From the NCBI GenBank assembly GCA_030523805.1, contig JAUNHS010000010.1, forward strand, positions 5,604 to 25,560: a DNA stretch of 19,957 bases. Reading direction: 5' to 3'. A model generated the notes under the pieces. It made no database searches. It worked only from the letters and a program-made list of their open reading frames with translations, and was not told where the DNA came from. Below are positions 1-16,191 of this stretch, piece after piece; the first letter of the stretch is position 1, and every line of letters starts with the position of its first letter. Source of the stretch: Acinetobacter sp. (GTDB lineage Bacteria > Pseudomonadota > Gammaproteobacteria > Pseudomonadales > Moraxellaceae). Both the position numbers and the translations under genes were made by a program.

Positions 1-644
1 GTATGGTCAGATAAACCCACCACCGCATCAGGGAATTTTTCAGCCAGCTCGGTCATGCCACCCAAACGTACATCTTGATATTGTGTCGGATAAACGTTGG
101 TGCAATGCAGTAACGCATAAGGCACACCTGCCGCACGGATAATGTCCACCGATTTTTGAATGCTGGCGATGGTGTTCATGCCTGTAGATAAAATAATCGG
201 CTTGCCAAATGACGCAATCAGCTTAATCAGCGGATAATTATTGCATTCGCCAGAGCCGATTTTGTAGGCTTCCACGCCCATGCGTTCCAAACGATGAGCC
301 GCTGCACGAGAAAATGGCGTACTGATAAAAATCATGCCTTTGCTTTCAACGTATTCTTTGAGCTTGATTTCGTCTTCTTCGTTTAAAGCACAGCGAGCCA
401 TGATTTCGTAAATAGACACATCTGCATTACCTGGAATGACGGCTTTGGCTTCGTCCGACATTTCGTCTTCTACAACGTGGGTTTGGTGTTTAACCACTTC
501 TGCACCTGCTGCGTGAGCTGCGTCCACCATTTCAAAAGCGGTTTTCAGGCTGCCTTCGTGGTTGATGCCGATTTCACAGATGATTAAAGGTTCGTGTTGG
601 TAGCCGACAAGACGGTTGCCGATTTTAAATTCGTTGTGTTGCAT
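1..644 (-). CDS. neuB: N-acetylneuraminate synthase, N-terminal part (cut by window edge)
   Basis: Condenses ManNAc with phosphoenolpyruvate to give N-acetylneuraminic acid in the cytoplasm. About 214 codons are present from the ATG at 642-644; the C-terminal part, including the expected antifreeze-like (SAF) domain, lies beyond base 1. The visible part is the NeuB TIM barrel. Its motifs include [11 protein letters not shown] (about residues 22-32), [38 protein letters not shown] and GLSDHT. From memory it is much closer to the meningococcal SiaC/NeuB protein than neuA and neuC are to their meningococcal counterparts. It is the third gene of the neuC-neuA-neuB series, 105 bases after neuA, with a possible promoter in that gap. 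The ribosome binding site is weak (GAG about 8 bases upstream). A hand count over 1-360 gives about 47% G+C, higher than in neuC. A related synthase for legionaminic or pseudaminic acid is possible but fits the sequence and neighbours less well. Confidence 0.93.
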
Positions 645-677
645 TGTATTCTCAAAAATAAGGTTGAAATTTTGTGT

Positions 678-686
678 ATTGTAGCA
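678..686 (-). promoter_or_regulatory. Possible extended -10 promoter for neuB
   Basis: On the minus strand the gap between neuA and neuB carries TGC directly before TACAAT, an extended -10 element. There is no convincing -35. Transcription would start near 671, leaving a leader of about 27 bases before the neuB ATG. This would let neuB be transcribed apart from neuC and neuA. Seen only as a motif. Confidence 0.4.
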
Positions 687-749
687 CATTTTAATGGCAT
701 TGATTGTATTGTTCATGCGTTAAAATCAATGCACTTTCATTTGAGTTCA

Positions 750-1439
750 CTAATGATTGGTTTGCACCAACGCATTTGCCAATTCCAAATCTTGCACACG
801 GTCAATATCCACCGAATCACGCTCACTCATTTCATACAAACAAATCGGATCATGGAAAAAGCGTGGCTCAGCAATCAAGCGTGCAATATGATTAAAATAA
901 ATCGCACCATTCGGTGTAAAGGCTTTCGGTAATTGCTGGCGTGGTCGCTCCAAGTCGCTCAATTCATGTACAGGCATAAAGCCTTGCTCCGTCTGCAATA
1001 ACACCTTATACGGGTGCTGCTCACTCGCACAAGCCGCAATCACACAGCCACCATTTTGCTGCAAAAATAATTCATAGGCTTCACGAATATGCTGCCCTGT
1101 GCGTAATGGACTGGTCGGCTGTAGTAAACAACAAATTCCATCTTGAATGTGCAACTCGTCCAAAGCGTGCAATACGCCTGCAATAGACGTTGCGGTGTCA
1201 TTGGCAAGTTCGTCAGGTCGGTGAATAACGCTTACACCATAACTTTTGGCTTCGTGAGCGATGGCATCGCCATCGGTAGAAACCACAATTTGACTAAATA
1301 CGCCACTGTCTTTTGCAGCTAAAATAGCTCGTCCAAGCAATGAAATGCCACCAACTGTTTGCAAGTTTTTTAGTGGAATGCCTTTAGAATTTTGTCTCGC
1401 CAAAATAATGGCAATGCGATGTTGATGTGCTTGTGTCAT
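750..1439 (-). CDS. neuA: CMP-N-acetylneuraminate cytidylyltransferase
   Basis: Activates sialic acid with CTP to give CMP-Neu5Ac, the donor for sialyltransferases. The protein has 229 residues, close to the meningococcal enzyme (about 228). Family motifs are in order: ILARQNSKG (about residues 12-20), the nucleotide-binding P-loop-like signature; VSTDGD (53-58); LLQPTSPLRTG (about 105-115); ERPRQQLP; FTPNGAIY; and DSVDID near the end, whose acidic residues bind the metal. The ATG at 1439 is chosen because it begins just before the conserved first strand and sits one base after the neuC stop, which suggests translational coupling. The frame stays open upstream to 1484, but that extension would overlap neuC and adds unconserved residues. 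The stop is TAG at 750-752. The neighbours fix the substrate as sialic acid rather than KDO or legionaminate. Confidence 0.94.
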   Translation of the reverse strand: MTQAHQHRIAIILARQNSKGIPLKNLQTVGGISLLGRAILAAKDSGVFSQIVVSTDGDAIAHEAKSYGVSVIHRPDELANDTATSIAGVLHALDELHIQDGICCLLQPTSPLRTGQHIREAYELFLQQNGGCVIAACASEQHPYKVLLQTEQGFMPVHELSDLERPRQQLPKAFTPNGAIYFNHIARLIAEPRFFHDPICLYEMSERDSVDIDRVQDLELANALVQTNH

Positions 1440-1440
1440 G

Positions 1441-2562
1441 TTACATATCCACAAAACTTTTTTGTAAATTGGTTTGCCATACATTACTTTGCGTTAAAAA
1501 TTCAGCAAAACGGCTAACGCTATCGCCATCACCAAACGTTTGGCTTGGCTGCAAATCCGTCAAAGCACAGGCTTGGGCAATAGCATTTAAAATGGCTTGT
1601 GGTGCATAATCGCTATTGATAATGCTTGGTGCATTGGCACGTTTATTTTGCCGTGTACCCACATTCACCGTAGCCACACCGTAAAACGGTGCTTCACGAA
1701 TGCCTGCACTAGAATTACCAATAATGAATGTTGCATTTTTCAACAACACCAAAAAGGCTTCAAATCGCACCGATGGAAAGCAACGGAATTGTGGATTGGT
1801 TTTTAATTTTTGAATTTCATGCAAAATGGCTTCTGTGCCTGTGTCATTATTGGGATAAATCACCACATAATTTTTGCCACTTTGGCGTAGTGCCGCAAAA
1901 TATTGCTCGGCATAATGGGCAATTTGTTCACTTTCTGTGGTTACAGGGTGGAATAATGAAACGGCATAATCATCAAAATCAATGTCGTAATAACGCTTCA
2001 CATCGTCTAAATTCGGTAGGCTTTTGGATTGCATCACGTCCAAATCTGGCGAACCAATAATGAAAATATGCTCGCTTTTTTCGCCCATCTGTATAAGACG
2101 TTGTTTCGCATCTTGGTTGGCAACCAAATGTATGTGCGATAATTTGCTCACCGCATGGCGAATGGAATCATCAATCGTACCAGACAATTCGCCCCCTTCA
2201 ATATGACACACCAAACAATTGCTCAATGCTCCAACCGTCGCTCCTGCTAAGGCTTCTAAACGGTCGCCATGAATGACCAATAAATCAGGCTCAATTTCTG
2301 CCACAAAGCGTGAAAGTAGCGTAATGGTATTGCCTAGCACCGAACTCATCGGCTCACCTTGAAATTGGTTGGCAGCTAAATAAACGTGTTGATATTTTTC
2401 TCGTAAAACTTCTATATAAGTGCTACCGTAGGCTTGCATCATGTGCATACCTGTTACGATCAGATGTAATTCTACATCGTGTTGTTGTTCTACAAAATTG
2501 AGCAAAGGCTTGAGCTTTCCAAAATCGGCTCGTGTACCTGTAATAAAAAGAATTTTTTTCAT
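1441..2562 (-). CDS. neuC: UDP-N-acetylglucosamine 2-epimerase (hydrolysing), ManNAc-forming
   Basis: First step of bacterial sialic acid synthesis: converts UDP-GlcNAc to ManNAc and UDP. The protein has 373 residues, the usual size for NeuC/SiaA. It begins ITGTRADFGKLKPLL (about residues 7-21), typical of the family, followed by LIVTGMHMM, QGEPM, HGDRLEALAG, HIEGGELSGTIDDSIRH and GNSSAGIREAP. The acidic residues known to matter in NeuC appear at the expected places: Asp100, Glu122 and Asp131. A histidine in the FHPVTTE segment (about 205) lies in the nucleotide-handling half. It is the promoter-proximal gene, with a terminator for the upstream unit and an extended -10 element just before it. 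There is no clear Shine-Dalgarno sequence before the ATG at 2562. A hand count over 1741-1980 gives about 39% G+C. Gene order matches meningococcal siaA-siaB-siaC. Confidence 0.94.
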   Translation of the reverse strand: MKKILFITGTRADFGKLKPLLNFVEQQHDVELHLIVTGMHMMQAYGSTYIEVLREKYQHVYLAANQFQGEPMSSVLGNTITLLSRFVAEIEPDLLVIHGDRLEALAGATVGALSNCLVCHIEGGELSGTIDDSIRHAVSKLSHIHLVANQDAKQRLIQMGEKSEHIFIIGSPDLDVMQSKSLPNLDDVKRYYDIDFDDYAVSLFHPVTTESEQIAHYAEQYFAALRQSGKNYVVIYPNNDTGTEAILHEIQKLKTNPQFRCFPSVRFEAFLVLLKNATFIIGNSSAGIREAPFYGVATVNVGTRQNKRANAPSIINSDYAPQAILNAIAQACALTDLQPSQTFGDGDSVSRFAEFLTQSNVWQTNLQKSFVDM

Positions 2563-2624: not shown

Positions 2625-2655
2625 AATAAAAAATCAGGCAATCTGCCTGATTTTT
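2625..2655 (-). terminator. Intrinsic terminator between the 77-aa membrane protein gene and neuC
   Basis: Perfect 12-bp inverted repeat (arms 2629-2640 and 2644-2655, core TCAGGCA/TGCCTGA) with a 3-base loop and A/T tails on both sides, so a T run follows the stem on either strand. It sits just after the minus-strand gene ending at 2671 and insulates the neuC operon from it. Confidence 0.8.
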
Positions 2656-2670
2656 GCTATAAAACACATC

Positions 2671-2904
2671 TTAATTTTGCTTTTGTTCAGCAGGTGCAGC
2701 GGCTGGTGTTTTCGCTTCTTCTGCTTTACGCTGAATTTCTGCTTCTTGCTGACGTTTCAGTTGTTGGCTCGGCATATAATCTGGCTCAGATGTTACTGCC
2801 AAAAAGAAAAAACCAAGAAATGTACCTGCAATAACAGCAGCAGCAATCAAGCCTTTATAGCCCCATGCTGATTTTTCTGGTCTAGTATCATTCATACTGC
2901 TCAT
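2671..2904 (-). CDS. Small single-pass membrane protein, function unknown
   Basis: A 77-residue protein that I do not recognise by name. A short polar N-terminus (about 16 residues) leads to one hydrophobic segment, about residues 17-38 (GLIAAAVIAGTFLGFFFLAV). After it come a short acidic stretch and a tail rich in Gln, Glu, Lys and Ala that looks helical, possibly coiled-coil, ending in an Ala/Pro stretch. The layout suggests an inner-membrane anchor with a soluble tail; orientation is not clear. The ATG at 2904 is chosen because GGAG lies six bases before it. A TTG at 2916 in the same frame overlaps that ribosome site and is unlikely. It has its own strong extended -10 element and its own terminator, so it is probably a separate unit, although readthrough from the AraC gene is possible since no terminator is seen there. 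Confidence 0.75.
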   Translation of the reverse strand: MSSMNDTRPEKSAWGYKGLIAAAVIAGTFLGFFFLAVTSEPDYMPSQQLKRQQEAEIQRKAEEAKTPAAAPAEQKQN

Positions 2905-2949
2905 GAGAGACTCCAATTTACGCTCAGCGTATTATCAAAATTTCAGATA

Positions 2950-2996: not shown

Positions 2997-4034
2997 TTAG
3001 GCTTTAAATTCATCATAATAGCCGTGCAACTGGCGATATAAACCTGGTGTTACACCTGTCCACTTTTTAAAGGCACGGTGGAAGGTACTGCTCTCACTAA
3101 AGCCAATATGCTGTGCGACATCTTCCAAACTGTATTTTGGATCAATCAATAAATGAATGGCAACATCACGGCGTAACGCATCTTTCACGCCTTGGTAGCT
3201 TTTACCTTCCGTCGCCAAACGACGACGCAACGTCTGTGGCGAAACATAAAGCTGTGCAGCAACTTCATTCAGCGTTGGCATTTCTTCGCCAATGTGAGCT
3301 TTTAAAATATCTCTAATACGAGATGTGAGTGAGTGTGTATTTTTATATTTAATCAACAACTGTGCAGGAGCGTATTTGAGAAATTCTTCCAAGCTATCGC
3401 CATCTTGGCGGATCGGAAAATCTAAATAATCGCTGGCAAAAGTCATTTCGGTACGAGCCATATCAAATTGCGTTACCGCAGAAAAGAATAAAGCATCGTA
3501 TTCATCGGCATGGGCTGGGCGTTTATAGTTAAAGTGAGTACGCTCAAGTGGAATGCGTTTATCAATCAACCACGCTGCCAAACCGTGCCAAATCATCATC
3601 ATACCTTCGGTTAAGAAATGGTCTGGGTCTTTGTCTGTCGGCACATTAAATACCAAGCGTGATTCGTGTTTATCACGTTCCAAGCTCACAATCCAGTCAT
3701 CGCCAAACAATTTGTAGAATTGTGTGCATAGCTCTAACGCATCGCCCAAAGTTTTGCTGTGTACAATCAATTGGCACATAATGGCAAATGTACCTAAACG
3801 ACGGGGTTGATCGTCAAATGCCACGTGTTCATCTTGCGTAACCAGCCACAGCATTTTCACAAATCGCATATATTGCTCTGGTGAAATGCGTGCTTTAGGG
3901 TGCTTAAGCAGTTCTGCTTCAATACCGACATGGGCTAATAAGGTTTCAATATCCATTCCCAAGCGTTTTACGCCTGTTAAAGCCGCATTGACAAAATGAA
4001 TACTAATGGTTTCCCGACTCACCGATGAACTCAT
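2997..4034 (-). CDS. AraC-family transcriptional regulator
   Basis: A 345-residue DNA-binding regulator. The N-terminal two thirds resemble the arabinose-binding-like domain of the long AraC subgroup (the type found in OruR/ArgR-like regulators); the ligand cannot be named. The C-terminal 100 residues hold the double helix-turn-helix: LNEVAAQLYVSPQTLRRRL for the first unit and YSLEDVAQHIGFSESSTFHRAF for the second, followed by the usual WTGVTPGLYR. The ATG at 4034 is favoured because a GAG-rich stretch precedes it by about 7 bases. ATG codons at 4046 and 4082 and a TTG at 4103 are also in frame; the 4082 start lies only about 20 bases from the predicted transcription start, so it stays possible (361 aa). 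The gene is divergent from cysI across a 223-base gap, which makes control of cysI plausible but unproven. Cys regulators are usually LysR-type. Confidence 0.9.
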   Translation of the reverse strand: MSSSVSRETISIHFVNAALTGVKRLGMDIETLLAHVGIEAELLKHPKARISPEQYMRFVKMLWLVTQDEHVAFDDQPRRLGTFAIMCQLIVHSKTLGDALELCTQFYKLFGDDWIVSLERDKHESRLVFNVPTDKDPDHFLTEGMMMIWHGLAAWLIDKRIPLERTHFNYKRPAHADEYDALFFSAVTQFDMARTEMTFASDYLDFPIRQDGDSLEEFLKYAPAQLLIKYKNTHSLTSRIRDILKAHIGEEMPTLNEVAAQLYVSPQTLRRRLATEGKSYQGVKDALRRDVAIHLLIDPKYSLEDVAQHIGFSESSTFHRAFKKWTGVTPGLYRQLHGYYDEFKA

Positions 4035-4108
4035 CTTTTCTCTCATAGATGCAAAATCTCTACTTATTGACGATATGGACATGAAATAATTTGAGTTTAG
4101 CAATTTAC

Positions 4109-4201: not shown

Positions 4202-4231
4202 TTGATGAATACTTTTTCTGTATGCTATGCG
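4202..4231 (+). promoter_or_regulatory. Candidate promoter for cysI
   Basis: TTGATG at 4202-4207, an 18-base spacer ending in TGC, then TATGCG at 4226-4231. The spacer end and -10 contain the TATGCTAT octamer. Start would be near 4238, about 20 bases before the cysI ATG. The -10 is imperfect, which suits a promoter needing an activator; the divergent AraC gene is a candidate. Confidence 0.45.
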
Positions 4232-4257
4232 AAAAATAGTTTGACTAGCTAACCGCC

Positions 4258-5901
4258 ATGTACTTATATACTGATTTTGACCAAAAACTGATTGATGAGC
4301 GAGTAGCTCAATTTAAAGACCAAACCGAACGCTATCTTGCAGGCAAATTATCGGAAGATGAATATCGTCCACTTCGTTTGCAAAATGGCTTATATGTGCA
4401 GCGCTACGCACCAATGTTGCGTGTCGCTGTGCCGTATGGTTTGATGAACTCACGCCAATTACGCAAAATTGCAACATTAGCACGAGATTATGACCGTGGC
4501 TATGCCCATGTTTCTACACGACAAAACATTCAATTTAACTGGCCTGCCCTAGAAGATGTGCCTGCCATGTTAGCCGAATTGGCAACCGTGCAAATGCACG
4601 CCATTCAAACGTCTGGCAACTGTATCCGTAACACCACCACCGACCAATATGCAGGCGTGGTTGCAGGTGAAATTGCCGACCCACGTCCGACCTGTGAATT
4701 AATCCGTCAATGGAGTACATTCCACCCAGAATTTGCCTTTTTACCCCGCAAATTTAAAATTGCCGTATCGGCATTAGAAGAAACGGATCGTGCTGCCACA
4801 GCATTCCACGATATTGGCGTGTATTTGGTGCGTAATGATGTAGGCGAATTGGGCTATCGCATTAATGTCGGCGGTGGCTTGGGGCGTACACCGATTATCA
4901 GCAGTGTGATTAAAGAATTTTTACCACGAGAAGATTTGATTGCTTATTTAGAAGCAGTATTGCGTGTCTATAATTTGCACGGTCGCCGTGATAATAAATA
5001 CAAGGCTCGTATTAAAATTTTGGTAAAAGCCTTAACGCCTGAAGTATTTGCCGAAAAAGTGGAAGCCGAATTTGCTTATACTCGTGAGCAACTGAAAATT
5101 CAACCTGAAATTTTAGCGAAAATGGATGCGGAGTTCCGTCCATTTGATTATCAAGATTTAGATGATGTGGACTTTAGCGAACTGTTTGCACAATATCCAA
5201 AATTCCGCCATTGGTTCAATATTAATACCAATGCTCATAAAGTCAAAGGCTATCGCATTGTAACCATTTCTTTAAAACGTGCAGGCATTGCCCCTGGTGA
5301 TATGACCGTTGAAGAAATGAATTTAATTGCCGATTTGGCGGATCAATACACCTTTGGCGAATTGCGTACCACGCATGAGCAAAATATCGCCTTGGTTGAT
5401 GTGCCGCAAAAAGATTTATTTACGCTATGGCAAACGCTAGAAAATGCCAACCTTGCACGGGCTCATATCGGCTTTGTTACCGATATTATTTGCTGCCCAG
5501 GGGGCGATTTCTGCTCATTGGCAAATGCAAAATCGATTCCAATTTCAGAAGCCATTTCTCGCCGTTTTGATGATTTGGATACCATTTACAATCTGCGTGA
5601 ATTGGATTTGAATATTTCTGGTTGTATGAATGCTTGTGGTCATCATCACGTTGGGCATATCGGCATTTTAGGCGTGGATAAAAAAGGCGAAGAATTTTAC
5701 CAAATTACGCTAGGTGGCAATGCCAATCATGATGCGTCTTTGGGCGATATTCTTGGGCCATCGTTCGCTGCTGAAAAAATTCCTGATGTGATTGAAGAAT
5801 TGCTCAATACTTATCTTGATTTGCGTGAAGATGAAGAGCGTTTTATTGACACCTATCGTCGTGTGGGCATTAAACCATTTAAGGAGCGTGCGTATGCTTA
5901 A
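4258..5901 (+). CDS. cysI: Sulfite/nitrite reductase, siroheme and [4Fe-4S] subunit
   Basis: Reduces sulfite to sulfide (or nitrite to ammonia in close homologues) with six electrons. The protein has 547 residues, the usual size for the CysI-like form found with DUF934 proteins. It shows the duplicated ferredoxin-like and siroheme domains. The first half carries STRQNIQFNWP and TSGNCIRNTT, with basic residues for siroheme. The second half holds the cluster ligands: Cys413-X5-Cys419 within CCPGGDFC and Cys456-X3-Cys460 within SGCMNACGHHH, where the last Cys would bridge cluster and siroheme. The ATG at 4258 gives the normal family N-terminus, but there is no clear Shine-Dalgarno sequence. The stop overlaps the next gene by 8 bases. 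No CysJ flavoprotein gene is next to it, so electrons probably come from a ferredoxin or another donor. Sulfite is favoured over nitrite by analogy with the Pseudomonas cysI-DUF934 pair; sequence alone does not settle it. Confidence 0.9.
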   Translation: MYLYTDFDQKLIDERVAQFKDQTERYLAGKLSEDEYRPLRLQNGLYVQRYAPMLRVAVPYGLMNSRQLRKIATLARDYDRGYAHVSTRQNIQFNWPALEDVPAMLAELATVQMHAIQTSGNCIRNTTTDQYAGVVAGEIADPRPTCELIRQWSTFHPEFAFLPRKFKIAVSALEETDRAATAFHDIGVYLVRNDVGELGYRINVGGGLGRTPIISSVIKEFLPREDLIAYLEAVLRVYNLHGRRDNKYKARIKILVKALTPEVFAEKVEAEFAYTREQLKIQPEILAKMDAEFRPFDYQDLDDVDFSELFAQYPKFRHWFNINTNAHKVKGYRIVTISLKRAGIAPGDMTVEEMNLIADLADQYTFGELRTTHEQNIALVDVPQKDLFTLWQTLENANLARAHIGFVTDIICCPGGDFCSLANAKSIPISEAISRRFDDLDTIYNLRELDLNISGCMNACGHHHVGHIGILGVDKKGEEFYQITLGGNANHDASLGDILGPSFAAEKIPDVIEELLNTYLDLREDEERFIDTYRRVGIKPFKERAYA

Positions 5902-6382
5902 TTTAACATCAGATGTGCTGTATAAAGATGGTTCGGTGCAAGCCAACAGCTACCAAAGCATTGGTGAAGATGGTGCAATTCCAACAGGCGATGTGCTATT
6001 GACCACAGAGCAATTAGAGCAAATATCGCAAGTCCAAGGCAAAAAAGCCTTGCTGATTACGGTGGATACTTCACCAGAAGAGCATTCTTTTCCATTAAAC
6101 GAACTTGATGCAATTTTTATTGAATTTGCAGGTTTTGGCGATGGACGTGGTTATTCTTTTGCCACCTTGCTGCGTCGTCAAGGCTTTCAAGGCGAATTGC
6201 GTGCGGTGGGCGATGTATTTAAAGACGTGTTGAATTATTTAATGCGTTCTGGTTTTGATAGTTTTGTGATTAAGGAAGGCAAAGATATTGCCGAAGCTGC
6301 TCAAGGCTTGAAGGATTTTACCACGCCTTATCAAGCATCTACAGCGGTGCGTGAAGCAAATTATCAGACAGGTAAAGCGTAA
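5894..6382 (+). CDS. DUF934 family protein, partner of the sulfite reductase
   Basis: A 162-residue soluble protein of the DUF934 family, commonly encoded right after a CysI-type reductase in proteobacteria. Its biochemical role is not established; a part in assembly of, or electron supply to, the reductase is a guess from context. Family-like segments include LNELDAIFIEFAGFGDGRGYS (about residues 66-86), LLRRQGFQGELRAVGDVFKD and MRSGFDSFVIKEG. The ATG at 5894 is chosen because AAGGAG at 5881-5886 stands 7 bases before it and it overlaps the cysI stop by 8 bases, a typical coupled pair. The same frame is open further upstream inside cysI, but those starts lack a ribosome site. A terminator follows 32 bases after the stop, closing a two-gene operon. 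Confidence 0.88.
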   Translation: MLNLTSDVLYKDGSVQANSYQSIGEDGAIPTGDVLLTTEQLEQISQVQGKKALLITVDTSPEEHSFPLNELDAIFIEFAGFGDGRGYSFATLLRRQGFQGELRAVGDVFKDVLNYLMRSGFDSFVIKEGKDIAEAAQGLKDFTTPYQASTAVREANYQTGKA

Positions 6383-6403
6383 TTTCAAGCCGTCATTTTC
6401 GCC

Positions 6404-6432
6404 TTTACAGTTGGGGTTGATGTGTTTATGAT
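6404..6432 (+). promoter_or_regulatory. Promoter for the FKBP-type isomerase gene, nested in a terminator
   Basis: TTTACA at 6404-6409, a 17-base spacer, then TATGAT at 6427-6432: five of six matches in each box. The -10 lies in the loop of the preceding operon's terminator hairpin. Transcription would start near 6439 in the right arm, so the new transcript would lack the left arm and could not form the hairpin. Confidence 0.65.
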
Positions 6433-6446
6433 ACATCAACCTTTTT
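6415..6446 (+). terminator. Intrinsic terminator of the cysI-DUF934 operon
   Basis: Perfect 9-bp stem, GGTTGATGT (6415-6423) and ACATCAACC (6433-6441), 9-base loop, followed by TTTTT and further T-rich sequence. It lies 32 bases after the DUF934 stop. Confidence 0.8.
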
Positions 6447-6465
6447 ATATTTTGGAAAACTCACA

Positions 6466-6912
6466 ATGAAAAAATTACTCACTGCACTATGCTTGCTGTT
6501 CACTGCGACAGGAGCAATCGCTCATACCGATTATATCCACAGCCAACAGCAGTTTATTCAGCATTATGCTCAATTAGACAATGTCCAACGTACTGCATCG
6601 GGTTTGCATTATCGCATCATTCAACAAGGGACAGGAGCAAAGCCAACAGCACGTTCTGTAGTTAGCGTGCATTATACTGGGCGATTGAGTAATGGCGATA
6701 TTTTTGATAGTTCACACGCACGTCAGCAAGCGATTAGTTTTCCATTAAACCAAGTGATTGCAGGCTGGACGGAAGGTTTACAGCTCATTCAAGAAGGTGG
6801 CAAAATTGAATTGGTCATTCCTGCTGCATTGGCGTATGGCAATCGTAGCGTGGGAGATATTCCTGCCAATAGTGTTTTATATTTTGAAGTAGATTTGCTC
6901 AAAGTGGAATAA
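6466..6912 (+). CDS. Secreted FKBP-type peptidyl-prolyl cis-trans isomerase
   Basis: A 148-residue protein that speeds cis-trans turning of prolyl bonds, probably helping proteins fold in the periplasm. Residues 1-19 form a signal peptide: two lysines, a hydrophobic core and an AIA site before His20. A short linker of about 30 residues is followed by a complete FKBP domain (about 50-147) with VSVHYTGRL, GDIFDSS, FPLNQVIAGWTEGLQLI, GGKIELVIPAALAYG and the final strand LYFEVDLL. These hold the aromatic and acidic pocket residues of active FKBPs. It lacks the long N-terminal dimerisation domain of FkpA and Mip, so it is a minimal form. It has its own promoter and a GGA about 10 bases before the ATG. 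It converges with the glycine-zipper gene. Substrates cannot be inferred. Confidence 0.92.
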   Translation: MKKLLTALCLLFTATGAIAHTDYIHSQQQFIQHYAQLDNVQRTASGLHYRIIQQGTGAKPTARSVVSVHYTGRLSNGDIFDSSHARQQAISFPLNQVIAGWTEGLQLIQEGGKIELVIPAALAYGNRSVGDIPANSVLYFEVDLLKVE

Positions 6913-6936
6913 ATCATATATTTTTGCGATAGATAT

Positions 6937-6974
6937 AAAAATCCCCAAAAGTAGTATCTCTCACTTTTAGGGAT
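6937..6974 (-). terminator. Intrinsic terminator of the glycine-zipper lipoprotein gene
   Basis: Arms 6941-6952 and 6963-6974 form a 12-bp stem with a 10-base loop. The one non-Watson-Crick position is G-U in the minus-strand RNA but C-A in the plus-strand RNA, and the T run (TTTTAT) follows only on the minus strand. It therefore serves the minus-strand gene ending at 7002, not the FKBP gene. Confidence 0.7.
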
Positions 6975-7001
6975 AGATGATGATCAATGACTTAATTTGT
7001 A

Positions 7002-7343
7002 TTAACGCTGACGATTTTCATCAATTTTATTACCAACCACGCTACCTACAGCACTTCCTAATGCAGCCCCTGTTGTGCCACCAATGGTTTTTTCACCAAG
7101 TACCGCACCCAAACCAGCACCAATCACTGAGCCACTGGTCATATTTTTATTTTTGCTCGCCACGCCTGCACCAATTGCACCGCCCAATGCTGCACCTGCT
7201 TCACCACCAATATGATTGCCAATACCAGCACCAATCGCACTGCCTAATGCTGCACGAGCATCTGTTTGGTTTACACCTGTATTCGTTGCACAACCTGTGA
7301 ATAATACCGCAGATAATACGCTTAGAATTGCAATTTTTTTCAT
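7002..7343 (-). CDS. Glycine-zipper lipoprotein
   Basis: A 113-residue envelope lipoprotein. Residues 1-17 are a lipoprotein signal, with lipobox LFTGC and the lipidated Cys at residue 18. The mature part is three glycine-zipper blocks (about 33-62, 68-85 and 87-107) made of repeated GAAxGxxIGxG-type units, such as AALGSAIGAGIGNHIGGEAG, split by a short polar turn (SKNKNMTSG). Such domains resemble the 17-kDa surface antigen (Rickettsia) and OmpA-type glycine-zipper families and are thought to pack helices in or on the membrane. The exact role is unknown. AGGAG seven bases before the ATG at 7343 fixes the start. It has its own extended -10 element and a terminator, so it is a single-gene unit between rpoC and the FKBP gene. 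Confidence 0.88.
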   Translation of the reverse strand: MKKIAILSVLSAVLFTGCATNTGVNQTDARAALGSAIGAGIGNHIGGEAGAALGGAIGAGVASKNKNMTSGSVIGAGLGAVLGEKTIGGTTGAALGSAVGSVVGNKIDENRQR

Positions 7344-7366
7344 TTTGACATCTCCTGTTTAAGATG

Positions 7367-7375
7367 AGCATAGCA
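7367..7375 (-). promoter_or_regulatory. Possible extended -10 promoter for the glycine-zipper gene
   Basis: The minus strand reads TGC followed by TATGCT, again within the TATGCTAT octamer. Start near 7360 would leave a leader of about 17 bases, just enough to hold the AGGAG ribosome site. No convincing -35. Confidence 0.4.
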
Positions 7376-7483
7376 TAGCCCAAATCTATGAATGATTTTC
7401 AAATTTCTTGTAATATCTAGTAACATTAAGCATTATTTATGTATGAATGTTTTGTAATTTCCTTGTTGTTTTAAAGCGTAAGC

Positions 7484-7517
7484 AAAAAAATATCGCCCAA
7501 CATTGAGCGATATTTTT
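7484..7517 (-). terminator. Intrinsic terminator at the end of the rpoBC operon
   Basis: Perfect 11-bp stem with arms 7486-7496 and 7507-7517 (core ATATCGC/GCGATAT), 10-base loop, and seven T residues on the minus strand counting from the stem. It begins 25 bases after the rpoC stop. Confidence 0.85.
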
Positions 7518-7541
7518 ATAGCTTATAGATTTAAATCAGAA

Positions 7542-10500
7542 TTAAAATTCTTGATTTAAAGCATCACTAAAGGCTTGGTCTAAATCCAAACTTGGTGCTG
7601 CTGCATCTGTATTTTCAGCTAAGAATTCAGCTGTAAACACATCTTGCTCTGTTGCCATTTGTGCTGCTTCAGCTTCTTGGCGACGACGCTCTAAATGATA
7701 CGCCAAGCCAGTACCTGATGGAATTAAACGACCGACAACAACGTTCTCTTTCAAGCCACGCAAGTCATCTTCTTTACCTGTTACCGCAGCTTCAGTCAAG
7801 ACACGTGTGGTTTCTTGGAACGATGCTGCAGAGATAAATGAGTCTGTAGATAATGACGCTTTAGTAATACCCATTAATTGACGTTCAAAACGTGCTGGGA
7901 ATTTATCCTGACCTTCTAAGGCTTTATTCTCTTGAACTACACGAATGTAATCCACTTGCTCGCCTTTAATGAAGTTCGTATCGCCACCATCAACAATTTC
8001 AACTTTACGCAACATCTGACGTACAATCACTTCAATGTGTTTATCATTGATTTTTACGCCTTGTAAGCGATAAACGTCTTGTACTTCATTTACGATGTAG
8101 TTGGTCAATGCCACTTCGCCTTTTAAGCGTAAAATATCGTGTGGATTTTGTGGGCCATCGGCAATCGTTTCACCACGTTGTACCGTTTCGCCTTCAAACA
8201 CGTTAATTTGACGCCATTTCGGAATTAATTCTTCATACGGTTCAGAACCATCTTCAGGCGTAATGATTAAACGGTTTTTGCCTTTTGTTTCTTTACCAAA
8301 GCTCACTAAACCAGACACTTCTGCCAAAATTGCGTGCTCTTTTGGTTTACGTGCTTCAAACAAGTCAGCAACACGTGGCAAACCACCTGTAATGTCTCGG
8401 GTACGAGATGATTCTTGTGGTACACGACCGATGACATCACCAATACCGATTTTTTCGCCATCACGCACAGTTAAGATAATGTTTTGTGGTAAGAAGTAGA
8501 ATTGCTCACCACCATCAACTGTATCTAACACAATCGCAGGACGTAAATCTTTACCCGATGCAGGACGAGCCGTTACAGGTAAGATTTGAATCGTAGTCAT
8601 ACCAGTAGATTCATCAGTTTTAGATGCTGCAGTTACGCCATCAGCGATTTGTGAGAAGCGAACTGTACCAGCCACTTCAGTAACGATTGGGTGTGTATGT
8701 GGATCCCAAGTCGCTACGATACCACCGCCATCAACTGCTTCACCATCTTTAATCAAAATGGTTGCACCGTAAGGCAATTTATAGCGTTCACGTTCACGAC
8801 CTAAATCATCGGCAACACCGATTTCACCTGAACGAGAAACAGAAACTAAATGTCCTTTCGCGTGTTGTACTGTTTTCACATTGTGGAAACGTACTGTACC
8901 TTTGTTTTTCACTTGTACGCTATTGACTGCTGATGTACCACTTGCCGCACCACCCACGTGGAATGTACGCATGGTCAGCTGTGTACCTGGTTCACCAATT
9001 GACTGTGCAGCCATTACGCCCACAGATTCACCTGGGTTCACCAAATGACCACGAGCCAAATCACGGCCATAACACTTCGCACATACGCCAAAACTTGACT
9101 CACAGCTCACCACAGAGCGAACTTTCACTTCGTCCACACCTGCTTCTTCAAGCTGAGCAGCAATTTTTTCGTCAATCAATGTGCCTTTTGGTAATACCAC
9201 TTCACCATCTGCTGCACGGTGTACATCATCAGCTGTTACACGACCTAATACACGATCACGCAATGGTTCAATGACATCACCACCTTGGATTAATGGTGTC
9301 ATCACTAAGCCGTGTTCTGTACCACAATCAGGTTCAGTAATCACTAAATCTTGTGCAACATCAACCAAACGACGTGTTAAGTAACCAGAGTTTGCTGTTT
9401 TTAATGCGGTATCCGCCAAACCTTTACGTGCACCGTGTGTAGAAATAAAGTACTGTAATACTGTCAAACCTTCACGGAAGTTCGCTTTAATTGGCGTTTC
9501 AATAATTGAGCCGTCTGGTTTTGCCATCAAGCCACGCATACCTGCCAACTGACGAATCTGTGTTGCACTACCACGGGCACCCGAATCTGCCATCATGTAG
9601 ATTGAGTTAAATGATTTTTGCTTTTCGTCTTCGCCTTGCTTATTCTTCACGGTAGTGAATGACAAGTTATCCATCATCGCTTTTGCAATTTGGTCGTTGG
9701 TACGTGTCCAAATATCCACGACTTTGTTATAGCGTTCGCCTTCGGTTACAACACCTTGGTTAAATTGCAATTCAATTTCACGCACTTCAGCTTCAGCTTT
9801 AGCGATAATTTCTTGCTTTTGTGGTGGAATTAACATATCTTCCATACCCACCGATACGCCTGAGCGTGTCGCTTGACGGAAACCAAGATACATTAATTGG
9901 TCAGCAAAAATCACCGTGTCTTTCAAACCTAAAATACGGTAGCATGAGTTGATTAATTTAGAGATGTTTTTCTTATTCATCTCCACGTTAATCATGTCAA
10001 AACCTAAACCTTCAGGCACAACTTCCCAAAGCAAACAACGTCCTGGTGTAGTATCTACGATGACGCTTTGTTGCTCTTTTTCGCCTTGCTCATTTACCAA
10101 TGTTTGATTGACACGTACTTTAATGCGTGCGTGTAAAGCCACTTGTTGCGTTGCCAATGCACGGTTTACTTCTTCCGTATCAGCAAAAACCATGCCTTCG
10201 CCTTTGGCATTAATCGCTTCACGAGAGATATAGTACAAGCCCAATACCACGTCCTGCGATGGTACGATAATCGGTTCACCATTGGCTGGAGATAAGATGT
10301 TGTTGGTAGACATCATCAAGGCACGAGCTTCTAACTGTGCTTCCAAAGTCAATGGAACGTGTACCGCCATTTGGTCACCGTCAAAGTCGGCGTTAAATGC
10401 TGTACACACCAATGGGTGCAAACGAATGGCTTTACCTTCAATCAAAATCGGTTCAAACGCTTGTAAACCCAAACGGTGCAAGGTTGGTGCACGGTTCAAC

Positions 10501-11780
10501 ATCACAGGGTGCTGACGAATCACATTCGCTAAAACGTCCCACACTTCTGGCGTTTCACGCTCCACCATCTTTTTCGCAGCTTTAATCGTTGTCGCATGAC
10601 CTGATGATTGCAATTTCGCATAGATAAATGGCTTAAACAACTCCAACGCCATTTTCTTCGGCAAACCGCACTGATGCAAACGTAAAGACGGACCAACGGT
10701 AATGACCGAACGACCAGAATAGTCCACTCGCTTACCTAACAAGTTTTGACGGAAACGACCTTGCTTACCTTTAATCATATCTGCTAAAGATTTCAATGGA
10801 CGTTTGTTTGAACCTGTAATCGCACGACCACGACGACCGTTATCCAATAACGCATCTACTGATTCTTGTAACATACGTTTTTCGTTACGCACAATAATAT
10901 CAGGTGCAGCTAAATCTAATAAACGCTTCAAACGGTTGTTACGGTTAATCACACGACGATACAAATCGTTCAAATCCGACGTTGCAAAACGACCGCCTTC
11001 TAAAGGTACTAACGGACGCAAATCTGGTGGCAATACTGGCAATACATTCATTACCATCCACTCAGGTTTGTTGTTTGACTCTTTGAATGCTTCCATCAAT
11101 TTCAAACGCTTAGACGCTTTTTTCAATTTGGTCTCAGACGTTGTTTGTGGAATTTCTTCACGCAAACGTGCAATTTCAGCTTCTAAATCAATATCTTTTA
11201 ATAGGTCTTGAACCGCTTCTGCACCCATTTTTGCCGCAAATTCATCACCATGCTCTTCTAAAGCATTGTAATATTCTTCGTCGGTCAATAATTGGTATTT
11301 CTCAAGTGGTGTCATACCTGGGTCTGTTACCACATAAGATTCAAAATACAACACACGCTCAATATCACGCAATGTCATATCCAATAACAAACCAATACGG
11401 CTTGGCAATGATTTCAAGAACCAAATATGAGCCACTGGCGATGCCAACTCAATATGACCCATACGATCACGACGTACTTTGGCTGTGGTAACTTCTACAC
11501 CACATTTTTCACAAATTACGCCTTTATATTTCATACGCTTGTATTTACCACACAAGCATTCATAATCTTTTACAGGACCAAAAATTTTGGCACAAAACAA
11601 ACCATCACGTTCAGGTTTAAACGTACGATAGTTAATGGTTTCAGGTTTTTTTACTTCACCATGAGACCATGACTTAATCATCTCTGGCGACGCAAGACCA
11701 ATACGGATACGATCAAATTCTACTGGAGTTTGACCTTCGCCCTCTGGCTTCTTACGCATAATATCGAGCAAGTCTTTCAC
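7542..11780 (-). CDS. rpoC: DNA-directed RNA polymerase beta' subunit
   Basis: Largest subunit of RNA polymerase, carrying the catalytic magnesium. The protein has 1412 residues, close to E. coli (1407). The N-terminal zinc site has Cys75, Cys77, Cys90 and Cys93. The catalytic loop NADFDGD spans 463-469, with Asp465, Asp467 and Asp469 binding magnesium. The second zinc site shows Cys893, Cys900 and Cys903 within [11 protein letters not shown], plus a Cys near 819 in EPDCGTEHG. The C-terminal tail after about residue 1370 is acidic and less conserved. The start is GTG at 11778-11780, seven bases after GGAG; no better ATG lies nearby. It follows rpoB after 77 bases that hold a strong hairpin. 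I saw no break, insertion or missing motif. Confidence 0.99.
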
Positions 11781-11794
11781 TTTATTTCTCCGTG

Positions 11795-11824
11795 AACCGA
11801 GTAATCACGCTGCGTTACTCGGTT
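11795..11824 (-). promoter_or_regulatory. Perfect hairpin between rpoB and rpoC, beside the rpoC ribosome site
   Basis: AACCGAGTAA (11795-11804) and TTACTCGGTT (11815-11824) form a perfect 10-bp stem with a 10-base loop. No T run follows on the minus strand; the next bases lead straight into the GGAG that serves rpoC. It is therefore not a normal terminator. A role in rpoC translation, RNase processing or message stability is inferred. Confidence 0.6.
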
Positions 11825-11857
11825 GGTTCAATTCATTAATACGTTATCAAACGTGAA

Positions 11858-14800
11858 TTATTCGCCATCTTTAAGTTCAATATTGATACCTAAAGAACGG
11901 ATTTCTTTAGTCAATACGTTAAATGACTCTGGGATACCAGGATCCATGTAATGATTGCCATCTACAATATTCTTATAGATGCGTGTACGACCATCAACAT
12001 CGTCCGATTTCACCGTTAGCATTTCTTGTAAGGTATAAGCTGCACCGTAGGCTTCTAATGCCCATACTTCCATCTCACCGAAACGCTGACCACCAAACTG
12101 AGCTTTACCACCCAATGGTTGTTGTGTTACAAGTGAGTACGAACCTGTAGAACGGGCGTGCATCTTATCATCTACCAAGTGGTTCAATTTCAGCATATAC
12201 ATATAACCCACGGTGACAGGGCGATCAAATTGTTCACCTGTACGACCGTCAAATAATACCTGCTGACCTGAACGTGGTAATTCTGCCAATTCAAGCAATT
12301 CTTTAATTTGCGTTTCTTCTGCACCATCAAATACTGGTGTAGCTAAAGGCACACCTGCACGCAAATTACCTGCAAGTTTTAAGATTTCATCATCAGTTAA
12401 GCTATCAAGATCTTCTTGCTCGCCACCGACTTTGTTATAAATCTTATCTAAGAATTCACGCAATTCTAAAATGGTACGTTGTTGTTTCAACATCTTATCA
12501 ATTTGCTCGCCCAAACCTTTGGCCGCCAAACCGAGATGCGTTTCCAAAATCTGTCCCACGTTCATACGAGACGGTACGCCCAACGGGTTCAACACGATAT
12601 CTACAGGTACACCATTAATATCGTATGGCATATCTTCTACTGGTAAGATGTTTGATACCACACCTTTGTTACCATGACGACCTGCCATCTTATCCCCTGG
12701 TTGGATACGACGTTTTACTGCAAGATACACTTTAACAACTTTCAACACACCAGTGGTTAATTCATCGCCTGTAGAAAGTTTGCGTTTTTTCTCTGCAAAT
12801 TTCTCATCAATTTCTTGACTCTTCTCTTTTAAGAAGGTTTGAATTTGCGTTAAACGCTCTGCAATCGCTTCATCTGCAGGTTGGATTTCAAGTAAATCTG
12901 CAACATCTAAACCTGACAATAATGTTTCATTCAACTTATCGCCACGCTTCGTTGTGCCACCACCATTTGATGTTTGATCTTTCAACAAACGAATGATACG
13001 CTCACGAGCTGCTTCCTCAAAGATTTTGTATTCTTCTTTCAAATCTTTACGATAGGCATCAAGCTGTGCTTTTTCAATGGCTAAAGCACGTTCATCTTTT
13101 TGCACGCCATCACGAGTGAAGACTTGTACATCAATCACTGTACCTTTCGTACCCGATGGTACACGCAATGATGAATCTTTCACATCAGTCGCTTTTTCAC
13201 CGAAAATCGCACGCAATAATTTTTCTTCAGGCGTTAATTGAGTTTCGCCTTTAGGGGTAACTTTACCCACCAAAATATCGCCAGCAGTCACTTCAGCACC
13301 GATATAAACAATACCAGACGCATCAAGTTTAGATAATGCCGCTTCACCCACATTTGGAATATCTGCGGTAATTTCTTCTGCACCTAACTTGGTATCACGT
13401 GCCACACACGACAATTCTTGAATGTGAATAGACGTTAAACGGTCTTCTTGCAACACACGCTCAGATAATAAAATCGAGTCTTCGTAGTTATAACCATTCC
13501 ACGTCATGAATGCCACACGCATATTTTGACCCAATGCCAACTCACCCATATCGGTAGATGGACCATCAGCCAACACATCACCTGTTGCAATCTTATCGCC
13601 TTGTTTTACCACAACATTTTGGTTAATACAGGTGTTTTGGTTAGAACGTGTATATTTAATCAAGTTATAAATATCTACGCCTGCTTCACCAGCAACCATT
13701 TCATCTTCATTGACACGCACCACGATACGAGACGCATCAACATAATCAATCACACCGCCACGTTTTGCAACGACACACACACCTGAGTCTCGTGCCACAT
13801 GAGCTTCCATACCCGTACCAACTAACGGCTTATCAGCACGCAATGTTGGCACAGCTTGACGTTGCATGTTTGAACCCATCAATGCACGGTTCGCATCGTC
13901 ATGCTCAAGGAATGGAATCAATGATGCTGCAACAGAAACCACTTGTTGAGATGAAACGTCCATATGCGTTACACGGTCTGCGGTCATACGCACAAACTCA
14001 CCATGATGACGCACCGAAACTAATTCTTCAGTCAAATAGCCATTTTCATCTAACACAGAATCCGCTTGTGCAATCACTGTACCTACTTCTTCAATCGCAG
14101 ATAAGTATTCCACTTCTTCTGTTACACGACCATCAACGACTTTACGATACGGCGTTTCTAAGAAACCAAATTCATTAGATTTTGCATAAATAGATAAAGA
14201 GTTGATCAAACCAATGTTTGGACCTTCAGGCGTTTCAATTGGACACACACGACCATAATGCGTTTGATGTACGTCACGCACTTCAAAGCCTGCACGTTCA
14301 CGTGTCAAACCACCAGGACCTAATGCTGATACACGACGTTTGTGTGTAATTTCAGACAATGGGTTGTTTTGATCCATAAATTGCGATAACTGGCTAGAAC
14401 CAAAGAATTCCTTAATCGCTGCCGATACAGGCTTCGCATTAATCAAATCTTGTGGCGATAAATTATCAGTTTCCGCCTGTGATAAACGCTCTTTCACTGC
14501 ACGCTCAACACGCACCAAACCTACACGGAATTGGTTTTCAGTCATTTCACCAACAGAACGCACACGACGGTTACCTAAGTGGTCAATATCGTCCACTTCA
14601 CCTTTACCGTTACGAATATCTACCAAAGTACGCAATACATCAATAATATCTTCGTGAGATAAAACACCTTCCACTTCACGAGATTTTTGATCTGTACCTA
14701 CGGCATAAGGACGACCCAAACGACGGTTAAACTTCATACGACCGACTGGCGATAAGTCATAACGCTCCATCGTAAAGAATAAATTATTAAATAAATTCTC

Positions 14801-15946
14801 TGCCGCTTCTTTGGTTGGTGGCTCGCCTGGACGCATCACTTTATAGATTTCAACCAAGGCTTCATCACGATCACGTGTTGTATCTGCACGCAATGTATCT
14901 GCAATAAATGGCCCACGGTCAATATCATTGGTAAATAAAATCTTAAATTGCTTAATGCCATGCTCAGCAATTTTCACCAATGTTTCATGGTCCAACAAAG
15001 TATTTGCTGCGATGATACTACCATCAGACAATTCAATATTTTCAGCAAGAATACGTTCATACAAATATTCATCAGGCACAGATAATTTGTTAATCCCTGC
15101 AGCTTCCATCTGACGAATATGGCGAGCATTAATACGCTTGCCTTGCTCTACAAGTACTTTACCTGCATCATCTTTAATATCAAATTGTGCCATTTCACCA
15201 CGCAAACGCTCTGGTACCAACTCAATTTGATAACTTCCCATATCTACAAATACGCCTACTTTTTCGTAGAACATACTCAAGATTTCTTCTTCTTTATAAT
15301 CCAACGCACGCAAAATCACAGTCGCCAACAACTTACGACGACGGTCAATACGCACATAAACTAAATCTTTTGCATCAAATTCAAAATCTAACCATGAACC
15401 ACGGTAAGGAATGATACGAGCAGAATACAACACTTTACTACTAGAATGTGTTTTACCCTTATCATGATCAAAGAATACACCAGGAGAACGATGCAACTGC
15501 GATACAATCACACGCTCTGTACCATTAATCACAAATGTACCATTTTCCGTCATTAACGGAATTTCACCCATGTAAACTTCTTGTTCACGTACATCTTTAA
15601 TTGCTTTTGTATCGCGATCTTTTAAAATCAAACGAATTTTTACACGCATTGGAGCAGCATAAGTTGAACCACGCAAAATACATTCACGCACATCAAACTC
15701 AGGCTTACCCAACTGATACTCAACAAATTCTAAAGCTGCATTGCCAGTATAACTTTCAATAGGAAAAACTGAACGAAATGCTGCTTGAAGACCGATATCT
15801 TCACGATTTTTTGACGTTTTGCCATCTTGCAAGAATGTTCTGTATGAATCAACTTGAATCGCCAATAAATACGGAACATCCATGATTTGAGGCAATTTAC
15901 CAAAATTTTTACGGATCCGCTTTTTTTCGGTATATGAGTATGCCAT
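11858..15946 (-). CDS. rpoB: DNA-directed RNA polymerase beta subunit
   Basis: Second large subunit of RNA polymerase, forming much of the active-site cleft and the rifampicin pocket. The protein has 1362 residues, the length I associate with Acinetobacter and relatives. The rifampicin region (about residues 516-545) reads [20 protein letters not shown], then [20 protein letters not shown]. The positions matching E. coli Asp516 (here Asp525), His526 and Ser531 are the sensitive forms. Later landmarks are [17 protein letters not shown], the [14 protein letters not shown] segment, [16 protein letters not shown] and the C-terminal clamp contact [19 protein letters not shown]. The ATG at 15946 stands 7 bases after GAGGA. 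A 283-base gap separates it from rplL, with an attenuator-like hairpin; rpoC follows in the same operon. No truncation seen. Confidence 0.99.
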
Positions 15947-15974
15947 CTTGGGTCCTCGTTAGTTAAATAAAATA

Positions 15975-15992
15975 TTCATCCGGCCGAATGAA
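15975..15992 (-). repeat. Compact inverted repeat upstream of the rpoB ribosome site
   Basis: An 18-base near-palindrome centred on GGCC. In the minus-strand RNA it can fold as a 7-bp stem (one G-U pair) with a four-base loop, followed by A/T-rich sequence and then the rpoB ribosome site about 20 bases further on. A regulatory role is inferred only from position. Confidence 0.35.
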
Positions 15993-16044
15993 ATCAAAAT
16001 ACCCCTAGATGTTCAGAAAACCAATACATCTAAAGACTTAAAAA

Positions 16045-16056
16045 ATGCTTAAGCAT
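16045..16056. repeat. 12-base perfect palindrome in the rplL-rpoB gap
   Basis: ATGCTTAAGCAT, symmetric with no spacer. It could be a protein-binding site or chance in A/T-rich DNA. No function assigned. Confidence 0.3.
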
Positions 16057-16095
16057 ATTTTCTGCAACTAAAACATGATTAAACATTTGATGATC

Positions 16096-16107
16096 ATTTG
16101 TACAAAT
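16096..16107. repeat. Second 12-base perfect palindrome in the rplL-rpoB gap
   Basis: ATTTGTACAAAT, symmetric with no spacer, 39 bases from the other palindrome. No function assigned. Confidence 0.3.
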
Positions 16108-16160
16108 TGAATGCACACACTTACATTCAAAAATTCAGGCCAAGCTCTCTATTGTAACGC

Positions 16161-16191
16161 AAAAGGGCTGATGACCCAATAGTCATCAGCC
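16161..16191 (-). terminator. Attenuator-like hairpin between rplL and rpoB
   Basis: Perfect 10-bp stem, GGCTGATGAC (16166-16175) and GTCATCAGCC (16182-16191), loop of 6, then on the minus strand one C and only four T residues. The weak T run fits partial termination. In E. coli an attenuator at this place lowers rpoBC expression relative to rplJL; the same job is inferred here. It starts 38 bases after the rplL stop. Confidence 0.7.

Follow-up and report, generated by a model that had tools for sequence, protein, structure and literature searches.

A meningococcal-type neuCAB operon and an unlinked candidate GT80 sialyltransferase gene in a small-genome Acinetobacter

The window, by which we mean the whole 19,957-nucleotide stretch of DNA that was analysed, carries at one end the genes neuC, neuA and neuB, which are adjacent, on the same strand, in the order C-A-B and all open (neuB as far as it is visible). 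The features and their window coordinates are:

3..716, minus strand: neuB, N-acetylneuraminate synthase, 5' part, codons 1-238 of the reading frame (PF03102 (NeuB), 178.9 bits)
750..1484, minus strand: open reading frame of neuA, CMP-sialic acid synthetase, complete (PF02348 (CTP_transf_3), 72.8 bits; top solved structure 1eyr, E 1e-74)
1441..2562, minus strand: neuC, UDP-GlcNAc 2-epimerase (hydrolysing), 373 aa, complete (PF02350 (Epimerase_2), 251 bits; TIGR03568, 416 bits with a cut-off of 236; 75% identity to the NeuC of genome G036)
2629..2655, minus strand: terminator-like hairpin (12 pairs) that separates neuC from the 81-aa gene upstream of it
2671..2916, minus strand: small protein of 81 aa, an upstream neighbour outside the pathway, with one hydrophobic stretch (by eye) and no family match
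2997..4103, minus strand: AraC-type regulator, a chromosomal neighbour whose top match in the plasmid collection is from A. baumannii (77%)
11858..15946, minus strand: rpoB, the marker by which the host was assigned to the A. baumannii genus

The family matches of NeuC, NeuA and NeuB far exceed the chance level. The likely start of neuA is at position 1439, one base past the stop codon of neuC, and the likely start codon of neuB is at 642-644, which leaves 214 codons of the gene visible. The hairpin upstream of neuC faintly suggests that neuCAB is a separate transcription unit; the region holds 4 terminator-like sites in comparison to a mean of 3.7 in shuffles and is not enriched in them, and the promoter and terminator scans gave counts no higher than in shuffles. 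The original prediction had called the operon complete-looking, which holds for neuC and neuA, while neuB is interrupted after codon 238 by a run of exactly 100 N (contig C168:5504-5603) immediately before window base 1. Two other N runs seen in the same assembly, on contigs C179 and C112, have this exact length of 100 as well, and the gap in neuB is thus most likely a scaffold placeholder, the real length of which is not given by the N count. The assembly therefore lacks the 3' part of the gene, which may be defective in the organism too, although we infer that an intact neuB, encoding a barrel plus an antifreeze-like domain, continues past the gap. With a full-length relative as query and E values up to 10, this stretch alone was matched, and the remainder of neuB was not found on any other part of the assembly. 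The truncated NeuB scored 251 bits with TIGR03569 (cut-off 400), and the full-length relative from G036, at 396 bits, also fell slightly below.

The draft assembly of the host comprises 220 contigs and 1.85 Mb, with a completeness of 90.45% and an estimated contamination of 2.86%. In the RpoB tree the host, on a long branch, clusters with A. baumannii and nine genomes of the same genus (support 100/99), which makes it an Acinetobacter species with a small genome. The guess that the DNA came from Moraxella nonliquefaciens or a relative did not survive this placement, and M. nonliquefaciens as the host is ruled out by RpoB, which showed no grouping with Moraxella-like genera. The named-genome scan had a reach of close relatives only. 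In A. baumannii NZ_CP064203.1, checked for an empty insertion site, comM, araC and rpoB lie far from one another, and in A. baumannii CP035931.1 the region past rpoC differs and the upstream side of mlaA has no listed feature.

A search with NeuA across 175 genomes of the genus gave six matches at E <= 1e-25, namely the host genome and five at 32-35% identity, and the host genome is thus alone among the 175 in having this NeuA type. The nearest relative found, G036, belongs to another genus (NeuC 75%, NeuA 62%, NeuB part 89%), and in both the NeuC tree and the NeuB tree the window pairs with G036 with a support of 100/99 each. Since these trees conflict with the RpoB tree, they point to horizontal transfer, and neuCAB was probably gained in this way; the pathway is of a known kind in an unexpected host. 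When codon use was fitted to a table from six neighbouring genes (which score 0.18-0.36, measured on themselves), neuA, neuB and neuC gave low values of 0.106-0.147 nats per codon; fkbp, pglD and the GT80 gene described below fit the table as poorly, and no inference is therefore drawn from the codon use of neuCAB.

In the sialic acid capsule locus of Neisseria meningitidis the order siaA-siaB-siaC corresponds to neuC-neuA-neuB. The window shares this order, with 86% identity for the NeuB part and 58% for NeuA, the comparison being made for NeuA and NeuB. The differences are that no siaD polysialyltransferase or ctr export genes are seen here, that the operon lies between comM (across the gap) and the AraC gene, and that the host is Acinetobacter. 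The order C-A-B was found in all six Moraxellaceae loci that were read, window included, among them those with a polysialyltransferase or a GT52 gene (G260, G010, G036). The G036 genes are accompanied by a flippase, a GT52, a Wzy_C/PglL-like ligase and pilin-like genes, of which the assembled portion of the present locus shows none.

A sialyltransferase gene anywhere in the genome was what the original prediction needed, and one candidate was found on a different contig, C154. It encodes a GT80 protein of 397 aa that matched PF11477 with 251.5 and 251.8 bits (cut-off 25), and aligned with the solved chain 4v39 with 113 identities over 351 residues (32%), the last 41 residues being unaligned. 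The control for the GT80 search rang in one of 14 genomes, below the cut-off; the match in the host is backed by Pfam and by solved structures. The catalytic residues of PmST1 are Asp141, His311, Glu338, Ser355 and Ser356, according to the part of PMC4202792 that was available. D124, H292, E320, S337 and S338 of the GT80 protein, positions that were partly counted on the printed alignment, align on the identical chain residues 117, 287, 314, 331 and 332, which were converted to PmST1 numbering by a presumed offset of 24. The tested motif set, i.e., the Asp of D/E-D/E-G, the His of HP, the Glu and the two Ser, is thus kept, and the protein is, judged by its sequence, a candidate sialyltransferase with the published catalytic residues. 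In comparison to the Pasteurella GT80 enzymes (PmST1/PM0188 and P. dagmatis PdST), it is alike in scoring far above the PF11477 cut-off and in retaining the published catalytic positions, and unlike in that it is 32% identical to the best solved chain, has an unmatched C-terminal end and sits beside mlaA in an Acinetobacter-type chromosome. Among the matches listed, the adjoining MlaA is closest to A. baumannii (61%), with the next genus at 41%, so that contig C154 fits the same kind of genome; an NmrA-type gene on this contig gave no Acinetobacter signal. The G+C content of the GT80 gene, 0.358 in comparison to 0.409-0.448, is below that of neuCAB, which together with the lack of linkage indicates that it may have been acquired separately. 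No GT80 relatives were found in viral contigs, and the plasmid collection held one, from Vibrio, at 21% identity.

We consider it probable that neuCAB was gained horizontally and makes CMP-Neu5Ac in this small-genome Acinetobacter, and that the unlinked GT80 enzyme caps a surface oligosaccharide, in place of a polysialic acid capsule. The alternative that the operon feeds such a capsule, with the polysialyltransferase and the ABC-type export genes hidden in the gap or in the tenth of the genome that the assembly lacks, appears unlikely, though it can draw on the relatives and on the length of the N run, which says nothing on the true length of the gap. In the other five Moraxellaceae loci, a PF07388 polysialyltransferase is the second gene after neuB in two and a GT52 is carried by one, and ABC-transporter-type capsule export genes stand straight after neuB in one more besides the two PF07388 loci. 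Moraxella bovis Epp63 and M. nonliquefaciens are members of the same neuCAB comparison group, and the accessible part of PMC12797221 reports that polysialic acid has been proved in the former, where the capsule genes are not all contiguous, and states that the latter has a polysialic acid capsule, as the original prediction had said. The capsule or sialyltransferase gene expected beside neuB was nevertheless not seen: what lies beyond base 1 is the assembly gap and then comM, facing the operon, and no ABC-type export genes (kps/ctr) were found on the near side of the gap or within 5.5 kb on its far side. The family searches covered the genome as assembled, which is 90% complete (threshold E <= 1; 14 control genomes), and gave no match to the GT38 polysialyltransferase family (PF07388), for which the control rang in six of the 14 genomes and above the cut-off in three. 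No match to GT52 was obtained either, with a weak control that rang in one of 14, below the cut-off, and the zero matches to GT42 carry no weight either way as its control rang in no genome. The sole Poly_export match in the genome adjoins wzb- and wzc-like genes; a capsule system is therefore present, of the Wza/Wzc type instead of the ABC type, and the GT80 gene offers an alternative use for the activated sugar. The K locus was read in pieces on contigs C179 and C112, and further unrecognised sialyltransferases, e.g., of the GT97 type, may lie beyond these pieces. The absence of a GT38 match and the presence of GT80 make a sialic acid cap likelier than a polysialic acid capsule.

The second question is which sugar is made. 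The NeuB part is identical to the solved chain of meningococcal SiaC (4ipi, N-acetylneuraminate synthase), which we take to be a ManNAc-using synthase, in 184 of 213 residues (86%), and NeuA (query residues 22-239) is identical in 127 of 218 (58%) to 1eyr, presumably the meningococcal CMP-N-acetylneuraminic acid synthetase. These enzymes are the top solved structures for the two proteins. They support the expectation that a Moraxellaceae chromosome carries a Neu5Ac-type pathway with its genes in the meningococcal order, and the identities make Neu5Ac the likely product. That the product is instead legionaminic acid or a different nonulosonic acid, the usual situation in A. baumannii, made through the gdr, DegT aminotransferase and PglD-like acetyltransferase genes of the K locus, we regard as quite improbable. 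These bacillosamine-type genes were found in the genome, and A. baumannii capsules are known for the bacterial-type pseudaminic, legionaminic and acinetaminic acids, with legionaminic and pseudaminic modules frequent in K loci (PMC9676051, available part). TIGR03568 also gives 455 bits to a same-genus NeuC of <=36% identity, so that this model cannot separate Neu5Ac epimerases from those for other nonulosonic acids, and the sole notable NCBIfam equivalog for NeuA is the pseudaminic acid enzyme PseF, at 134 bits and below its cut-off of 206. Against this stand the SiaC identity and a NeuB_NnaB score above the PseI score for the NeuB part, as well as the NeuC sequences from five further genomes in the same-genus family sample, which are just 33-36% identical and may be the legionaminic-type ones. 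Moreover, qhbAB with gdr is listed for QuiNAc4NAc synthesis in 14 of 237 K loci in the portion of PMC9676051 seen, which would account for the K-locus genes without legionaminic acid. Table 7 of the same partly available source gives a neuAB module in one of the 237 A. baumannii K loci, without structural data; it is alike in predicting a neuraminic acid derivative in the genus, and unlike in being neuAB only and in a K locus, in comparison to neuCAB here on a contig without K-locus genes.

There is likewise only a slight chance that the operon is a decaying remnant, with a neuB that is truncated in the organism itself and a genome that is shrinking: the small assembly, the long RpoB branch and the missing remainder of neuB would agree with it, but neuC, neuA and the entire visible neuB are free of stops and the sequence is lost precisely at a 100-N run, of a kind seen at two other sites of the assembly. 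That the operon stems from a Moraxella or Neisseria contaminant binned together with Acinetobacter is hardly credible, as, despite the fragmentation and the estimated contamination of the assembly, one uninterrupted stretch, with no N in the window, joins neuCAB to rpoBC, ribosomal protein genes, a sulfite/nitrite reductase gene and the AraC gene, the best matches of rpoB and araC in the plasmid collection are from A. baumannii, and RpoB falls in that genus.

The genes, their families and order, the host genus, and the GT80 gene with its catalytic residues are established here, and on these the following pathway can be proposed. NeuC would convert UDP-GlcNAc to ManNAc, NeuB would form Neu5Ac by condensing ManNAc with phosphoenolpyruvate, and this would be activated by NeuA with CTP to CMP-N-acetylneuraminic acid. 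The GT80 enzyme, if it works together with neuCAB as we infer, would then move Neu5Ac in the cytosol to a galactose-type residue at the end of a surface oligosaccharide. The acceptor would most likely be lipooligosaccharide or a side branch of the capsule, and the result would be a sialic acid cap like that of the host. A bolder version, to which we give a little less than even weight, is that two separate transfers, of a neisserial or Moraxella-type neuCAB and of a Pasteurella-type GT80 gene, produced a complete and self-sufficient sialylation, with lipooligosaccharide capped with Neu5Ac, the first in the genus.

Sialic acid is a sugar that coats animal cells. If the proposed pathway is true, a host-like sialic acid made from scratch together with a candidate transferase would fit a life on animal surfaces, and the range of GT80 would extend past Pasteurella, Photobacterium and Haemophilus, as given in the partly available sources. 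In general, the finding would show a route for sialylation to enter the genus Acinetobacter.

The genes neuC, neuA and the start of neuB were found together in the first 2.6 kb of the window, with the likely start of neuA 1 base past the neuC stop:

1441-2562, minus strand: neuC, Epimerase_2 at 251 bits
750-1484 (open reading frame, likely start 1439), minus strand: neuA, CTP_transf_3 at 73 bits
3-716 (likely start 644), minus strand: 5' part of neuB, NeuB family at 179 bits

The NeuC, NeuB and NeuA families lead from UDP-GlcNAc to CMP-Neu5Ac. Against solved structures, the best matches of NeuB were the meningococcal SiaC chains, with a score of 414 bits and identity at 184 of 213 aligned residues, and NeuA matched best, at 254 bits, the CMP-N-acetylneuraminic acid synthetase 1eyr (127 identities, query residues 22-239). 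For NeuC, the top type of solved match was a bifunctional UDP-GlcNAc 2-epimerase/ManNAc kinase at 211 bits, and the second was a diacetylbacillosamine 2-epimerase at 191 bits. Its NCBIfam model scored 416 bits, above the cut-off of 236, and because the same model gave 455 bits for a NeuC-like protein from another genome of the host genus, at no more than 36% identity, NeuC alone is no proof of Neu5Ac. The NCBIfam match of NeuA was PseF at 134 bits, below the cut-off of 206. It is chiefly the nearness of NeuB and NeuA to solved meningococcal enzymes that speaks for Neu5Ac, and at the level of sequence this bears out the original prediction of a Neu5Ac-type pathway, by which the three enzymes would convert UDP-GlcNAc to CMP-Neu5Ac in the host.

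The original observation was mostly right, but its description of the operon as complete-looking holds only in part: neuC, neuA and the neuB start are present, but the neuB end, along with anything past it, is missing from the assembly (1.85 Mb, 220 contigs, 90.45% complete) because the window, which spans bases 5604-25560 of contig C168, abuts a run of exactly 100 N directly ahead of base 1. Two other N runs met in this assembly are likewise exactly 100 long, and a search of the assembly with a full-length NeuB relative gave no second neuB piece. Beyond the run lies comM on the plus strand, which matched a YifB-type ATPase. An inverted repeat resembling a terminator was noticed with it by eye, but had no entry in a terminator scan restricted to 3-8-base loops. 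After comM, away from the window, come a small gene and then two genes which we take to be glnK and amtB.

The suggestion of a Moraxella-type host was ruled out by RpoB. The rpoB gene was 83% identical over its full length to four A. baumannii records, and an RpoB search of 21 genomes gave 18 matches (own genome, nine from its genus at 89-91% and eight of other genera at 76-80%) and three genomes without a match. In a tree of those 18 plus A. baumannii, the host RpoB fell into one group (support 100/99) with A. baumannii and those nine genomes, on a long branch whose exact position inside that group the tree did not resolve. This places the host in the genus of A. baumannii.

The meningococcal gene order noted at the outset, C-A-B, is indeed present but was found in all six Moraxellaceae loci read (the window and genomes G036, G050, G056, G260 and G010), and is thus common to these loci rather than a special meningococcal link; G036 carries an acyltransferase gene between neuA and neuB. 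In each of four loci outside the family neuB was ahead of neuC, with B-C-A in L003 and L069, A-B-C in L071, and B-C in L070, which had no NeuA match at E <= 1e-5; the NeuA matches in these outside loci were weak (30-36%).

The genes adjoining neuCAB vary among the relatives. In G260 and G010, neuB is followed by a DUF6716-type gene and then a PF07388 polysialyltransferase gene. This putative glycosyltransferase gene in the neuB-polysialyltransferase interval (L028 12034-13134; L030 6818-7891, the G010 locus, where the DUF6716 match is below the family cut-off) was seen in two genera. G050 has capsule export genes of the ABC-transporter type, and no sialyltransferase was recognised among three proteins scanned in G056. 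The GT52 gene of G036 adjoins flippase, Wzy_C/PglL-like ligase and pilin-like genes, within the following cluster:

L026 (G036:C7:89000-108999) 4212-16333: Neu5Ac cluster of neuC, neuA, acyltransferase, neuB, flippase, GT52 and GT2

Next to this cluster lie the ligase gene and, both named by eye, two pilin-like genes and one for an initiating sugar transferase; it looks like a locus for sialylated pilin or protein O-glycosylation.

NeuC matches at E <= 1e-40 were found in 21 of 299 family genomes, own included, five of the others at 59-75% identity and the other 15 at 30-36%. At E <= 1e-70, four of 369 class genomes matched, namely the own genome and three at 46-52%, and a named-genome scan reaching close relatives only gave one, Helicobacter cetorum, at 47%. 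A neuC 54% identical to that of the window also lies at 7218-8336 of an 83-kb plasmid record of Alistipes indistinctus (NZ_AP023050.1). For NeuA at E <= 1e-25, six of 175 genus genomes matched; since five of these were only 32-35% identical, the own genome is the sole carrier of this NeuA type in that sample, which holds one genome per species and leaves strain-level carriage outside its reach. In both the NeuC and the NeuB tree, built without Neisseria and with several deeper forks not resolved, the partner of the window is G036, which belongs to another genus (support 100/99 in each tree), while in the RpoB tree G036 joins G010, far from the window. This conflict is what horizontal transfer would give, and the 75% NeuC identity to G036 suggests an exchange that was indirect or not recent.

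A sialyltransferase somewhere in the genome had been named as a test of the prediction, and one was found. The GT80 search of the own genome gave a single gene on contig C154 (PF11477, 251.5 bits; the control of this search gave 1 of 14, below the cut-off). No matches at E <= 1 were obtained in the own genome for GT38 (control good), GT52 (control weak) or GT42, although the control of the last was silent. The GT80 gene and the pieces in which a Wza/Wzc-type capsule system is present are as follows:

L068 (C154) 1571-2764: GT80 (PF11477) sialyltransferase gene, between an hxlR regulator and mlaA
C179: wza-wzb-wzc, galE, pgi, ugd, galU and gdr (wzb, galE, pgi, ugd and galU by eye)
C112: initiating transferase, PglD-like gene and DegT gene

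The GT80 product has 397 aa, no signal peptide by eye and no NCBIfam model match. Its best match, at 160 bits, was the sialyltransferase chain 4v39, presumably from Pasteurella dagmatis, with 113 identities across 351 residues. The Asp, His, Glu and two Ser that PMC4202792 names as important for PmST1 are conserved in it. Next to it, C154 encodes an HxlR regulator, an NmrA-type reductase, MlaA and, by eye, a transporter. The contig fits the host because MlaA is nearest to A. baumannii (61%; next genus 41% among the matches listed); the NmrA-type gene gave no A. baumannii-like signal. On C179 (L059 8224-18623), two acyl-CoA dehydrogenase-like genes (by eye) lie past wza-wzb-wzc, followed by galE-pgi-ugd on the opposite strand, a layout unusual for an Acinetobacter K locus, and on C112 (L063 1123-2652) an AlbA/Schlafen-domain open reading frame with a Fic-like C-terminal domain lies amid K-locus sugar genes. 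The reading of a sialic acid capsule is unproved.

In print, PMC9676051 lists a neuAB module for one A. baumannii K locus among 237 and flags it as having no structural data, and 'sialic acid biosynthesis' occurs once in an A. baumannii paper (PMC8225882). Polysialic acid was shown in Moraxella bovis Epp63 by PMC12797221, which also states the earlier confirmation in M. nonliquefaciens, in agreement with the original statement on the capsule of that species. Among the matches listed, open-access titles and abstract openings held no complete Neu5Ac pathway or GT80 enzyme in Acinetobacter.

A cytosolic GT80 enzyme would transfer Neu5Ac to what we infer to be an acceptor of galactose type, carried by a lipid-linked oligosaccharide. 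PMC4202792 places polysialyltransferases in GT38 and describes GT80 enzymes as using galactose-terminated acceptors, often with several activities; a lipooligosaccharide cap or a capsule side branch, on such a presumed acceptor, is thus likelier than a polymer. The neuCAB pathway belongs to a known type, its host is unexpected, and the GT80 gene is the finding added here.
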